From Vibrio cholerae (GTDB lineage: Bacteria; Actinomycetota; Actinomycetes; Actinomycetales; Micrococcaceae): DNA of 64,000 bases. A program made the position numbers and the translations under genes. Where the stretch lies: positions 124,001 through 188,000 of the forward strand of contig WNZI01000002.1 in NCBI GenBank assembly GCA_009728235.1, read 5' to 3'. Shown here piece after piece: positions 3,018 through 7,140 of the stretch. Numbering within the stretch: the stretch's first letter is position 1; each line of letters starts with the position of its first letter. The notes below the pieces were generated by a model that saw nothing but the letters and a program-made list of their open reading frames with translations, did not search any database and was not told where the DNA came from.

Positions 3018-3779
3018 GTGCTGATCCTGCTCCCGCCGTCCGAAGGCAAGACCGAGGCCCGAACCGGTGATCCCCTCCGGCTGGAGGCCCTTCGCTTCCC
3101 CGAACTCACTCCCGCCCGCCGTTCCGTGCTCGCGGCCCTCGCCGAGACGAGCAGCGCGATCGATGCGCACCGGATCCTCGGTGTCGGCAATTCCCTGGCA
3201 GCAGACGTGCTGCGAAACCTCGTCCTCGAGACCGCCCCCGCCGCACCGGCCTACAGCGTGTACTCCGGAGTCCTCTACGACGCACTCGGATACTCCTCCC
3301 TGACAACCGTGCAGAAGCGCAAGGCCCGGGAGAACTGCCTGGTCATGTCGGGGCTGTGGGGCGCGATCGGCCTCGGTGACAGGATCCCCGCGTATCGTCT
3401 GTCGATGTCGGTGGACCTGCCAGGCACCGGTCGGCTGGCCTCGTTCTGGAGGGAGCACCTCGCCTCCCCCATGGCCCGGCTCGCCGATGCCCGACTCGTC
3501 GTCGACTGCCGGTCCAGTACCTACGCAGCGGCCTGGACGCCACCGGCGCTGCAGAGCGCCGCGGTGAACGTGTTCCAGGTGCGGAACGGCAGGCGGACCG
3601 TCGTCTCCCATTTCGCCAAGCACACGCGCGGCGAGTTCGCCCGACACCTGCTCTCCCGCCGGGGAGCCGCTCCGACGACACCGGAGGGCCTGCTGAAGGT
3701 CGCGCGCGAGAAGTGGACGGCAGAGCTGGAACCGGCGACGCCACGGAAGCCCGCACAGCTCAGCATCGTCCTGGACTGA
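3018..3779 (+). CDS. yaaA: YaaA family peroxide stress protein (DUF328)
   Basis: The 253-aa protein begins LILLPPSEGKTEA, the signature start of the YaaA/DUF328 family, and retains later family features such as YSGVLYDALGY and the SHFAKHTRGEFAR segment near the C-terminus. In E. coli YaaA lowers free intracellular iron during peroxide stress and binds DNA; a role here is inferred from the family. The GTG start has no Shine-Dalgarno sequence. A TACAGT -10 box at 3006-3011 predicts transcription starting at or next to the GTG, so the mRNA is probably leaderless. Monocistronic, divergent from rnpB. Confidence 0.93.
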   Translation: MLILLPPSEGKTEARTGDPLRLEALRFPELTPARRSVLAALAETSSAIDAHRILGVGNSLAADVLRNLVLETAPAAPAYSVYSGVLYDALGYSSLTTVQKRKARENCLVMSGLWGAIGLGDRIPAYRLSMSVDLPGTGRLASFWREHLASPMARLADARLVVDCRSSTYAAAWTPPALQSAAVNVFQVRNGRRTVVSHFAKHTRGEFARHLLSRRGAAPTTPEGLLKVAREKWTAELEPATPRKPAQLSIVLD

Positions 3780-3803: not shown

Positions 3804-4742
3804 TCACTCCGCGACGAGTTCCACCTCGAGGCCCTCGGCATTCTCGAGGTAGGCGGCATAGTGCTCGGGCCCGCCCGCGAACGGGTGCCTGTCGGCGAAC
3901 AGCAGCGTCCACCCGTGGCTCGCGGCGCGGCGTGTCAGCAGGTCGACGTCCGCTCGCGTGCCCGCCCGGAAGGCGAGGTGGTTCACCCCAGGGCGACGGC
4001 GTTCGTGGCCGCCGGACGCGAGGTCGGGGCCGCTTTCGAGGACGAAGTAGAAGTCGTCGGATCCGTAGCTCGCGCCGTTCGTCCAGGTGTCCTTCCGAGG
4101 GAAGCCCAACCGTTCGAGCAGCCAGCCGAGGCTCGCCAGGGCGGCAGTCAGGTCCTGCGTCCACACCTCGACGTGGTGCAGCCTGCCCGTAGGCCTCGGG
4201 GTCGGCTCGGCCTCCGGCGACCGTTCAGGCGTCGCAGCGGCCGCAGTACGCGGCTTCCATTCCACTCCCGCCATCCCTGCATCCATGGCTTCGTTGGACA
4301 ACCTGTCCGCATCCTTGTTCCGCTCGCGGGGGATCCATTCGTAGGTGACGCGCCGGGGGTCGAGGACCTTGCGCGCCTTCGCTGCAAGCACGCGCATGTC
4401 CGCGTGCTTGATCTGCCACCGCCCGGACATCTGCTCCACGACGAGTTTCGAGTCCATCTTCACGTGGACGGCAGCCTGGGGATTGATGTCCCGGGCGAGT
4501 CCGAGTCCCGCGACGAGACCCGAGTATTCAGCGACGTTGTTGGAGGCCTTGCCGATGTACTCTGCCTTCTCCACCAGGATCCGTCCGGTCTCGGGGTCGC
4601 GCACGAGCGCCCCATACCCCGCGTGCCCGGGATTTCCGCGGGACCCGCCGTCGGCCTCGACGACGAGTCGCGCGGGCGCTCCTGCCACGGCCGAGTCCTG
4701 CCGGTCCTGTTCGTACGGGTCGAACAACTGCTGGTCTGCCAC
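3804..4742 (-). CDS. RNase HI domain fused to a VOC (glyoxalase-like) domain
   Basis: Residues about 24-155 form an RNase HI domain: EADGGSRGNPG with catalytic D31, the Glu in NNVAEYSG (about 72), the Asp in KMDSKL (about 97) and D146 in NKDADRLSN. After a Pro/Ala/Glu linker (about 163-186), residues 187-312 form a VOC domain opening RLHHVEVWTQDL and closing with YAAYLENAEGLEVELVAE. No start codon lies in the linker, so the two domains are translated together. Mycobacterial homologues in this operon (Rv2228c type) carry a CobC-like acid phosphatase at the C-terminus, so the partner domain has been exchanged. The GTG start follows the zinc-ribbon stop by 2 nt; an ATG at 4799 is possible but overlaps the upstream gene. 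Confidence 0.9.
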   Translation of the reverse strand: MADQQLFDPYEQDRQDSAVAGAPARLVVEADGGSRGNPGHAGYGALVRDPETGRILVEKAEYIGKASNNVAEYSGLVAGLGLARDINPQAAVHVKMDSKLVVEQMSGRWQIKHADMRVLAAKARKVLDPRRVTYEWIPRERNKDADRLSNEAMDAGMAGVEWKPRTAAAATPERSPEAEPTPRPTGRLHHVEVWTQDLTAALASLGWLLERLGFPRKDTWTNGASYGSDDFYFVLESGPDLASGGHERRRPGVNHLAFRAGTRADVDLLTRRAASHGWTLLFADRHPFAGGPEHYAAYLENAEGLEVELVAE

Positions 4743-4744
4743 GG

Positions 4745-5488
4745 CTACTGGTGTCCCCAATCGGCGGAGCGGACGAGGATGCAGCCGGAGTCGGGACACA
4801 GCACGATGTCGTCCGGAGCGGCTCCGGCGATGTCCGCGAGGTCGCCCGGGCTGAGCTCCATACCCGAACCCTCCGACTTGCCGTGGAACAGTCGTGCCGC
4901 TCCCACGCCCCGCCGTGCGAGGATGCGCTCGTACATCGCCAGGAGACCCGTGTCGAAGGTGGCTGCGACGTCGTCCCTCCGCGACTGCACCTCGCTACGC
5001 TGCACCTCGATGTCGGCCAGTTCGGCGTCGCGCGCCTCCTCGAGCGACCGCAGCTCCGCCCGGACGCTGTCCGTGCGCGCCTGGATGTCGCCCTGCACGC
5101 CACGGGCGGCCTCCACGCGTTCCATGACGTCCAGCTCCACGTCCTCGAGGTCCGCGCGGCGCTTGGTCAGGGAGGCGACCTCGTGCTGGAGCGCAGTGAG
5201 ATCCTTCGATGTCCCCGTGCCGCTGTTCAGGCGCTTCTCGTCCCGTTCGAGCCGGTTGACGACCGACTGCACCTCGTCCTCCGCCTTGGTCAGTTCCCGC
5301 TGGAGATCTCCCACTTCCGTGGTCGCGCGCACGAGCTCGGCATCGACCTCGGCGACGCGCGCCGCGACGACGCCGAGTTCGGGGTTGCCTCGGGCGGCGG
5401 CAGCGTGCCTGCTCAGCTTGTTCAGGGTCGAATCGAGCGCCTGCAGCTCGAGCAGGCGCAGTTGTTCCTCTGGTGCAGCCTTGGCCAC
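4745..5488 (-). CDS. Coiled-coil C4 zinc-ribbon family protein
   Basis: A 247-aa protein with a long helical coiled coil (about residues 10-175) and a C-terminal segment matching the zf-RING_7/CT398-like family. Normally two Cys pairs bind zinc. Here the first pair is absent (AARLFHGKSEGSGMELSPGDL) and only the second remains as CPDSGC near the C-terminus, so zinc binding is doubtful. Members are thought to act in secretion or nucleic-acid metabolism, but the function is not established. It lies between nif3 and the RNase HI gene on the same strand, the same order as Rv2230c-Rv2229c-Rv2228c. Start ATG with a GGAGGTTTACC ribosome site. Confidence 0.88.
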   Translation of the reverse strand: MAKAAPEEQLRLLELQALDSTLNKLSRHAAAARGNPELGVVAARVAEVDAELVRATTEVGDLQRELTKAEDEVQSVVNRLERDEKRLNSGTGTSKDLTALQHEVASLTKRRADLEDVELDVMERVEAARGVQGDIQARTDSVRAELRSLEEARDAELADIEVQRSEVQSRRDDVAATFDTGLLAMYERILARRGVGAARLFHGKSEGSGMELSPGDLADIAGAAPDDIVLCPDSGCILVRSADWGHQ

Positions 5489-5570: not shown

Positions 5571-6508
5571 TCAGGAGCCGGGGGTGAGGACGAAGTCCCA
5601 CGGGTCCGTGTTGACGCTGCTCACTCGGATGTCCGTGGAGAATCCCTGATCGGAGAGCACGTGGGTCAGCGCATCCGCCGCAGGCGTCAGCCAGACCCAC
5701 TCACTGCCGAAGTGCGAGACATCGATCAGGTACGGCGTCCCGCCACCCGCTGCTTCACGTACCTCCGACGCCGGGTGATGACGGAGTCGGCGGTGACATA
5801 GACGTCGGCCTGACTGGACCGCACCCGATCCAGGAGGGAGTCCCCGGCGCCCCCACACACCGCGATGCGTCGCACCAGGGCATCCCTGTCACCGGCGACC
5901 CGAACGCCACCCGCCACGGCTGGGAGGATCGAGAAGACCACCTCGGCGAAGGTACCGAGCGACATCGGCGCCGCCAGGTCTCCCACGCGACCGATGCCCT
6001 CCTCGGGCAGCCCGTCGGCGGCGGGCGCAAGCGGTGACACGTCGATGAGTCCGAGCGCGTCGGCCAGCACGTCGGAGACGCCACCCACGGCGCTGTCCCC
6101 GTTGGTGTGCACCGTCACGAGGGCGCACCCCGCCTCGATCAGGCGATGGAGCACCTCCCCCTTGAAACCCGAGGCAGCCACCGAGGAGACGGGCTTCAGC
6201 AACAGGGGATGATGGGACACGACCATGCTCGCTCCCCACGCCAGTGCTTCATCGAGGACCTCGGCCGTCGGGTCGACGGTGAAGAGGATCTTCTGCACCG
6301 GGTTCGCCGATCGTCCCGCGACGAGCCCGACGGCGTCCCAGCCCTCGGCGAGACTCTCCGGCCAGAGTTCCTCGATGGCGAGCAGGACATCACCGACCGT
6401 CGGTGTCGCGGCGCGGGCAGGGCCGTCGTCGTCCGACGCCGTGACGGGACCGGGTTCCCGGTCCGTGGGCTCCGGTGCGACCTCGGCGTCGTGCTCGTTC
6501 TCTTCCAT
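5571..6508 (-). CDS. Nif3-like dinuclear metal centre protein (frameshifted in this sequence)
   Basis: Nif3/YbgI/DUF34 family, a hexameric protein with a two-metal site; in actinobacteria it may act as a GTP cyclohydrolase-like or general metal-dependent hydrolase, but the role is unsettled. The N-terminal part has WDAVGLVAG and the metal motif SHHPLLLKP, then HTNGDSAVGGVSDVLAD. Near the C-terminus the frame breaks: the 5' frame reads DVYVTADSVITRRR, while TADLRHHPASEVREA followed by DVSHFGSEWVW is expected and continues in another frame. One base is missing at about 5786. Start taken at the ATG at 6508; first gene of the Nif3 / zinc-ribbon / RNase HI operon. Confidence 0.85.
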
Positions 6509-6615
6509 GCCATCAGTAATACCCGCCGCCGCCCCGCCCTCCAACTCATGCGGGTGTTCTCCTGCAGCGGAGCACGCGCGGGAATCTTCGGCGTGTGCCG
6601 CGCATTGACACAGGC

Positions 6616-7140
6616 ATGAAGACTTTTGTGCTCGGAGGGGGCTGTTTCTGGTGCCTCGATGCCCTTTACCAGAAGACACGCGGCGTGACCGAGGTCGTGT
6701 CGGGCTATACCGGTGGCCACACGAAGCACCCTGACTACGATTCGGTCTGCTCCGGCATGACGGGACACGCGGAGGTCGTCGCGGTGACGTTCGACGAGAC
6801 GGTGATCCCCGAGGAGGTCATCCTCGACATGTACTTCGTGTCGCACGACCCCACCACCCTGAACCGTCAGGGGTACGACGTCGGCACCCAGTACCGGAGC
6901 GTCATGTACTACCAGGACGCCGGGCAGAAGACCGTGTTCGAGGATGCCATCGCGCGGAACCAGGAGAACTGGAAGAACCCGATCGTCACCGAGGTCAGCC
7001 GGCTGCCCGAGTTCCATGTGGCGGAGGACTGGCACCAGGACTATTACGGGAAGCACCCGGAGCAGGGCTACTGCCAGGTGATCATCAATCCCAAACTCGC
7101 GAAGGCGCGGAAATATTACGCCCAGTGGCTTGCGGCGTAG
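6616..7140 (+). CDS. msrA: Peptide methionine sulfoxide reductase MsrA
   Basis: Reduces methionine-S-sulfoxide in proteins, repairing oxidative damage. The catalytic motif GCFWC sits at residues 9-13, with Cys10 the nucleophile. Further family blocks are SGYTGG, GHAEVV and YRSVMYY, and the C-terminal region has a second Cys (QGYCQV) that could resolve the disulfide. The 174-aa length is typical. The ATG at 6616 begins MKTFVLGGGC as in homologues; a GTG at 6595 would add seven residues with no support. Divergent from nif3. Confidence 0.96.
   Translation: MKTFVLGGGCFWCLDALYQKTRGVTEVVSGYTGGHTKHPDYDSVCSGMTGHAEVVAVTFDETVIPEEVILDMYFVSHDPTTLNRQGYDVGTQYRSVMYYQDAGQKTVFEDAIARNQENWKNPIVTEVSRLPEFHVAEDWHQDYYGKHPEQGYCQVIINPKLAKARKYYAQWLAA

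Follow-up and report, generated by a model that had tools for sequence, protein, structure and literature searches.

The gene at positions 3804–4742 on the reverse strand of the window (the whole 64,000-nucleotide stretch of DNA analysed, from an Arthrobacter) encodes an RNase HI joined to a VOC domain. The fusion is genuine and widespread, a variant of the bifunctional RNase HI already known from actinobacteria. The most telling new point is an exact division of the sampled Micrococcaceae into genomes with the RNase HI of this slot and genomes with a canonical RnhA, together with VOC genes that stand alone at the slot. It is probable that the protein combines two enzymes which work independently on a single chain and that its N-domain is the cell's RNase HI, whose loss is tolerated where RnhA is present and sometimes leaves the VOC part alone.

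The single frame of 312 amino acids begins with a GTG at 4742, 2 bases on from the stop of a zinc-ribbon gene, and ends with a stop at 3804. As the original prediction had it, this one frame contains both domains, RVT_3 at residues 30–152 (E 2.9e-19) and Glyoxalase_4 at residues 189–298 (E 6.2e-7, 30.1 bits against a cut-off of 27) in a Pfam search of the full protein. The RNase HI domain (residues 25–157, positions 4272–4670, reverse strand) also passes the RNase_H profile of Pfam with 28.4 bits against a cut-off of 25.8 and is 53% identical, by structural alignment, to 3hst_B, the RNase H domain of Rv2228c (sequence match E 1e-40; Foldseek E 1.7e-15, TMt 0.91). The VOC domain (residues 188–312, positions 3807–4181, reverse strand) was recognised by the Glyoxalase profile as well, with 23 bits against a cut-off of 20.6 for the full protein, and when the VOC part was run alone 32.7 bits were obtained for Glyoxalase_4 and 25.8 for Glyoxalase at the same cut-offs of 27 and 20.6. 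The search of this half against NCBIfam gave no usable name, the sole match being TIGR02295 at 11.9 bits against a cut-off of 321.4 (E 0.094). Its closest solved relative is 3ct8, a putative glyoxalase of Bacillus halodurans (41% identity by structural alignment; sequence match E 1.8e-27; Foldseek E 5.9e-13, TMt 0.87), which differs in standing alone and in having V and an adjacent Q at the position of E236 of the fusion. In the model, at residues 190–236 and 255–310, helices and strands follow one another as in the paired beta-alpha-beta-beta-beta units of the VOC fold. No match to the histidine phosphatase profile His_Phos_1 appeared in the fusion protein at E 0.1, and the phosphatase RHG motif is found in none of the fused loci among the best 80 of 215 relatives. 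Profiles, sequence and fold thus agree with the proposal that the C-terminal domain is a VOC and not a phosphatase.

The AF2 model of the fusion shows two confident domains connected by a disordered linker (pLDDT <50), with a pTM of 0.48. The linker (residues 158–187, positions 4182–4271, reverse strand) is variable in length and has a pLDDT <50 at residues 161–177; across the fused proteins the stretch corresponding to residues 155–187 is 25–110 residues long. The linker had been described as free of start codons, which holds for codons 161–188, where no in-frame ATG, GTG or TTG occurs, but ATG153, ATG157 and GTG160 lie in frame just upstream, so that an internal start may give a VOC-only product.

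The known system to which the gene belongs is the actinobacterial bifunctional RNase HI/acid phosphatase (CobC), represented by Rv2228c, MSMEG_4305 and SCO2299 (NCBIfam NF005567, PRK07238), from which the fusion differs in having a VOC instead of a histidine phosphatase as its C-terminal half. NF005567 accordingly matches the fusion at residues 25–200 only, with 229.7 bits, below its cut-off of 326. Searches of open-licence PMC papers for an RNase H-glyoxalase/VOC fusion, a scope that does not itself show absence in print, listed PMC7890812, PMC4614350, PMC12419801 and PMC7466739; in the last of these the words "glyoxalase" and "fusion" do not occur.

The active sites of both halves are highly conserved. 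All four catalytic acids predicted for the RNase HI half, D31 (4650–4652), E72 (4527–4529), D97 (4452–4454) and D146 (4305–4307), all on the reverse strand, are indeed kept, each in 63 of 63 distinct fused proteins, a set that includes L076, which is broken at its end. Four residues of the VOC half, H190 (4173–4175), E236 (4035–4037), H255 (3978–3980) and E308 (3819–3821), likewise on the reverse strand, are putative metal ligands, a role which we assume from VOC enzymes, and the His-Glu-His-Glu site that they form presumably resembles that of glyoxalase I. Both histidines are found in 63/63 fused proteins, E236 in 62/63 (Q in L031) and E308 in 62/63, the exception being L076 with its broken VOC part. 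The same four positions are kept in 17–18 of 18 VOCs standing alone at the slot and each in 29–34 of 34 VOC relatives elsewhere. Mean pairwise identity among the 63 distinct fused proteins is 0.81 for the RNase H, 0.67 for the VOC and 0.24 for the linker, and median dN/dS values of 0.045 and 0.112 were obtained from 120 sampled pairs of fused proteins, in which dS is possibly saturated. Judging from these sequences, the putative His-Glu-His-Glu site of the VOC half is held by purifying selection.

The locus itself is recurrent. Upstream of the fusion gene lies a gene for a zinc-ribbon coiled-coil protein (4745–5488, reverse strand; CT398_CC/Zn_ribbon_9 in Pfam), a relative of which occurs in 100 of 120 Micrococcaceae genomes, preceded by a putative Nif3-like gene at 5571–6679 (reverse strand), which is split over two overlapping frames in the assembly. 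On the other side the slot is bounded by a convergent YaaA gene (3018–3779, forward strand; H2O2_YaaD E 2.2e-40). Both the Nif3-like gene and YaaA are syntenic in most relatives read, and the gene order Nif3 > zinc-ribbon > slot < YaaA was seen in most of the 60 Micrococcaceae loci read, exceptions being, for example, L163, where the zinc-ribbon gene alone was recognised, and the Nesterenkonia loci. In Nesterenkonia (g25) and in genus g28 (L127–L131, L172–L176) there is no zinc-ribbon match, and Nif3 and the slot gene are still there.

The fusion is not confined to this genome. When 57 genomes were searched, both domains were matched in the genome of the window and in 34/34 genomes of the same genus, the matches being split in five of them (G001, G005, G016, G017 and G026, the last on two contigs). 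A frameshift separating the domains, named in the original prediction as what would speak against it, is ruled out by 30/30 same-genus loci (29 relatives and the own genome) without a stop through both domains. A wider scan, made with a pair of RNase H peptide patterns, yielded 215 relatives. The best 80 were kept, and the search for other RNase HI-VOC fusions was successful in 57 of these 80, where both domains lie in one frame; among the 57, the VOC part of L076 is broken, L083 ends at a contig end and L085 has a run of N. Carriers of the one-frame fusion are Arthrobacter, one genome labelled Paenarthrobacter, Micrococcus, Citricoccus, Haematomicrobium and other Micrococcaceae, and many assemblies made independently, among them a complete chromosome, contain the fusion intact. 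The remainder of the best 80 (of 215) are L087 with broken frames, nine loci with an RNase H-phosphatase and 13 with an RNase H match only, one of which (L089) ends at a contig end. L087 (3992–5565) is the fusion of Arthrobacter sp. ATA002, a complete genome, in which it is spread over several frames. A domain swap unique to the genome of the window was considered and rejected, same-genus genomes and other genera carrying the fusion.

To survey the slot, PF13456, zinc-ribbon and VOC searches over the same 120 Micrococcaceae genomes were combined, giving 29 fusions, five lone RNase HI genes, 23 lone VOC genes and 63 genomes in which neither was found there, ten of the latter having no zinc-ribbon match, so that the slot was not located in them. 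PF13456 was matched in 35/120 genomes, that of G511 (E 1.7e-6) being a different gene, which leaves 34 at the slot, and VOC relatives occur in 75/120. The 63/120 genomes with neither domain mean that the VOC half, too, is often dispensable. All five lone RNase HI genes, of ~150 amino acids, come from Nesterenkonia. Among the 23 lone VOCs, 18 follow the zinc-ribbon gene at a distance of no more than 100 bases and the other five, from g28, lie downstream of Nif3 without a zinc-ribbon match; three of the 23 (G463, G495 and G511) are truncated or broken. YaaA is close behind the VOC in three of the g28 loci, ~3 kb on in G478, where the VOC is ~2 kb from Nif3, and outside the stretch examined in G494.

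Comparing genomes that harbour or lack the slot RNase HI with the presence of RnhA revealed a complete division. The genome of the window has one RVT_3 gene, and its sole PF00075 match is the same gene; the N-domain is taken as the cell's RNase HI on the ground that no RnhA was found beside it. Across the 120 Micrococcaceae genomes the slot RNase HI is present in 34 and a strong RnhA, defined in the family as a PF00075 match at E 1.4e-27 or better, in 86, with an overlap of 0 and a union of 120, and there is no such match in the 34 slot genomes. The four DEDD acids could be read by eye in 18/18 RnhA genes inspected. A further weak PF00075 match (E 1.8e-9 to 4.1e-15) occurs in five genomes of the Micrococcus-type genus g35 and in G445, and a second weak match also in several RnhA genomes, so that the claim is "exactly one of two types" and not "no other RNase H-like gene". 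In two g35 loci (L290 and L291) a protein of >300 amino acids contains an RNase H-like domain (PF00075 E 1.4e-14 and 2.8e-13), in which acidic residues of an RNase H site are apparently present; from their sequences the g35 genomes may hold a second RNase H activity, making the slot gene less surely the only RNase HI there. Within the family, both the absence of the RNase H half exactly where RnhA is present and the VOC alone at the same locus go beyond what had been predicted.

The 34/86 split is phylogenetically clumped. An rpoB tree was read for independent changes, with 60 genomes (57 ingroup), four of 64 being left out (G024, G332, G473 and G508), and with the broken slot VOCs of G463, G495 and G511 scored as present. 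Within the ingroup the slot RNase H label changes six times. Well-supported branches carry five independent contrasts, and RnhA is opposite in 5/5 of them (sign test p 0.0625), RnhA having been entered as the complement of the slot RNase H given their complementarity in these genomes. Across the order the exclusion is not absolute: in a sample of 396 genomes the slot type is found in 103 and a strong RnhA in 303 (354 genomes with a match of any strength, less the 51 whose best E did not reach 1e-20; tallied by hand), with both in 18 and neither in eight, some of the latter genomes being incomplete. That each cell has one of the two RNase HI types is strongly supported. In M. smegmatis, according to PMC4429107, rnhA and MSMEG4305 can each be deleted alone and are lethal when deleted together; the paper adds that, where a pair of such RNase HI domains exists, one could be expected to become inactivated.

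Exclusion between RNase H genes is an idea already published. The mutual exclusion of RNase HI and HIII (Kochiwa et al. 2007, PMC1950709) is similar in that a lineage does not inherit redundant RNase H genes jointly, and the same paper considers how RNase HI with a hybrid-binding domain and RNase HI lacking one replace each other, which is close to the present case. The difference is that the exclusion seen here is between two kinds of RNase HI and that the missing part is one domain of a bifunctional gene, of which the other may stay.

For the history of the locus, one early fusion in the family followed by repeated loss of one or both halves is the simplest reading, although several fusions are possible. 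The RNase H domains of Micrococcaceae form one clade (support 98/91). This clade joins Terrabacter-type and Dermatophilaceae sequences bearing phosphatase or degenerate tails, though weakly (81/85). In the VOC tree, which is short of columns for its number of rows, 44 fused and eight slot-alone VOCs form one clade (100/97) with the slot-alone VOCs nested among the fused ones in at least two places, while the fused VOC of Haematomicrobium and the slot VOCs of g28, g29, g126 and g115 fall outside this main clade with poor support. That tree kept 97/120 rows; the short fragment L134 and 23/69 fused rows (even-numbered loci, for size) were left out, and L076, L083, L085, L087, L089, L136, L137, L139, L186 and L210 were set aside as having a broken, truncated, masked or missing VOC. 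Counting losses only gives 10 RNase H losses (9–12) and 13 VOC losses (11–14) over 200 bootstrap trees. The evidence for the order of gains and losses is moderate, and the tree does not fix it. The lone RNase HI of Nesterenkonia was considered as an ancestral state and rejected, since the rpoB tree nests this genus in the family with the Micrococcus/Citricoccus-type (97/85); for the same reason loss of the VOC is preferred there, the RNase H tree leaving its place open.

Repeated origin of the fusion from adjacent RNase HI and VOC genes, as opposed to a single origin at the family's base, is the best placed of the alternatives and still unlikely. VOC genes alone right behind the zinc-ribbon gene are common (18/120), and Haematomicrobium and several slot VOCs stand outside the main fused clade, as multiple fusions would have it. 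Against this, RNase H and VOC never occur as a neighbouring pair of intact genes in the 60 family loci read. Among the best 80 (of 215) loci, L087 alone has the two halves in different frames, by frameshifts, and in L085 a run of N lies between them. On the RNase H tree one label change suffices for the VOC-fused RNase H, though the branch concerned has a support of only 64/18.

Outside the family the partner of the slot RNase HI varies. Among 20 slot-type RNase HI genes from 15 other families of the order, the partner is a histidine phosphatase in 13, nothing in three, a rhodanese in two, DUF1737 in one and an unrecognised "degenerate" tail in one. In a chosen set of 72 rows (65 distinct) typed by motif, 29 carry a VOC, 22 a histidine phosphatase, nine a degenerate phosphatase, eight nothing, three a rhodanese (two distinct genomes) and one DUF1737. 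Pfam on a subset confirms DUF1737 (L298), rhodanese (L299 and L308) and His_Phos_1 (L302, L305 and L306), while L095 falls just below the His_Phos_1 cut-off and L303 has no phosphatase match, so that its label is weak. The statement that relatives carry a phosphatase therefore applies to other families of the order but not to relatives inside Micrococcaceae. Of nine intact RNase HI-phosphatase loci, four resemble the present locus in following directly after Nif3 and the zinc-ribbon gene (L094, L109–L111), four have the phosphatase-bearing gene ~2.2–2.6 kb behind (Oerskovia L101, L102, L104 and L108) and L103 ends at a contig end. With the fusion common to many genera of one family and with such varied partners, the earlier idea of an unusual single exchange is not supported, and the exchange of phosphatase for VOC is only one episode in the history of the slot. 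The accompanying view of the partner as a tolerated module fits well, a phosphatase, a degenerate tail, a rhodanese, DUF1737, a VOC or nothing being found on the slot RNase HI, and the evidence for modularity of the two halves is strong.

Some of these partners were observed in detail. L091 (2827–3810) is a fusion of RNase HI with a rhodanese-like domain, its gene following a zinc-ribbon gene, and L299 (384–1265) likewise joins RNase HI to a rhodanese-like domain, while in L298 (1271–2080, reverse strand) the partner is DUF1737 (Pfam E 5.5e-20). The His_Phos_1 half of L306 (1024–2109, reverse strand; E 2.5e-43) has LVRPGST in place of the LVRHG of its relatives, and from this motif its catalytic histidine seems to be replaced. 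Eight loci (L095, L097–L100 and L105–L107) have a Terrabacter-type RNase HI with a tail lacking the RHG motif, weakly phosphatase-like in L095, and CobS is present in 8/8.

Functional coupling of the halves, in which the VOC unit, probably a dimer, would pair the RNase H domains or add a substrate contact and so replace the basic protrusion, as proposed for CobC in Rv2228c, is somewhat less likely again than repeated fusion. The halves have remained fused over many genera, and PMC7466739 reports the isolated RNase H domain of Rv2228c to be slower than the full protein; the same paper, however, describes truncation of the CobC half in M. smegmatis with hardly any effect on growth, for which its authors suggest drift. 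The lone RNase HI of Nesterenkonia, the lone slot VOC in 23/120 Micrococcaceae genomes, the unrelated partner folds elsewhere in the order and the flexible linker of such variable length all speak against coupling.

It is very doubtful that the VOC half deals with lesions linked to nucleotides or RNA/DNA hybrids, such as aldehyde adducts. In that case the fusion would clean up in two steps, and the other partners (rhodanese, phosphatase, DUF1737) would point to a family of proteins at the Nif3/zinc-ribbon locus in which the handling of metabolites or damage is coupled to RNase HI. More improbable still is that the phosphatase half was dropped after loss of vitamin B12 synthesis, when CobC was no longer needed: CobS is missing or borderline in Micrococcaceae (2/120 match, one at and one below the cut-off), as this would predict, but elsewhere CobS occurs in 2/9 genomes with an intact RHG phosphatase half against all eight of the Terrabacter-type without the motif, which contradicts it. 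An artefact of assembly or frameshift joining two genes, for which one could cite that rpoB (G000:C36) and the Nif3-like gene are both split over frames in this assembly, the rpoB split making assembly indels the likely cause in Nif3, is practically excluded by the intact fusions in other assemblies.

In the preferred reading of two independent enzymes on one chain, the N-terminal domain, with its RNase HI fold and DEDD acids, would cut the RNA strand of RNA/DNA hybrids as the cell's RNase HI, and the VOC unit would probably act on a small molecule as a metal-dependent homodimer, the flexible linker letting the two halves work apart. In other families of the order the slot RNase HI mostly bears a histidine phosphatase, whose place the VOC would have taken near the base of Micrococcaceae. 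Where a canonical RnhA is present the RNase H half would become redundant and be lost, leaving the VOC alone or nothing; in Nesterenkonia the VOC half would have been lost instead.

The locus thus presents a gene for a bifunctional enzyme whose two halves have separate fates. In the Micrococcaceae sampled, genomes with the RNase HI half are always without RnhA, by which the synthetic lethality known from M. smegmatis shows up as a genomic pattern. That the partners differ so much argues that the RNase HI-CobC pairing of mycobacteria need not be a functional coupling, and the natural one-half versions, lone RNase HI and lone VOC, form together with the fusion a set for testing the effect of fusion. 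For the VOC half, the slot defines a VOC group with a recurrent genomic place.
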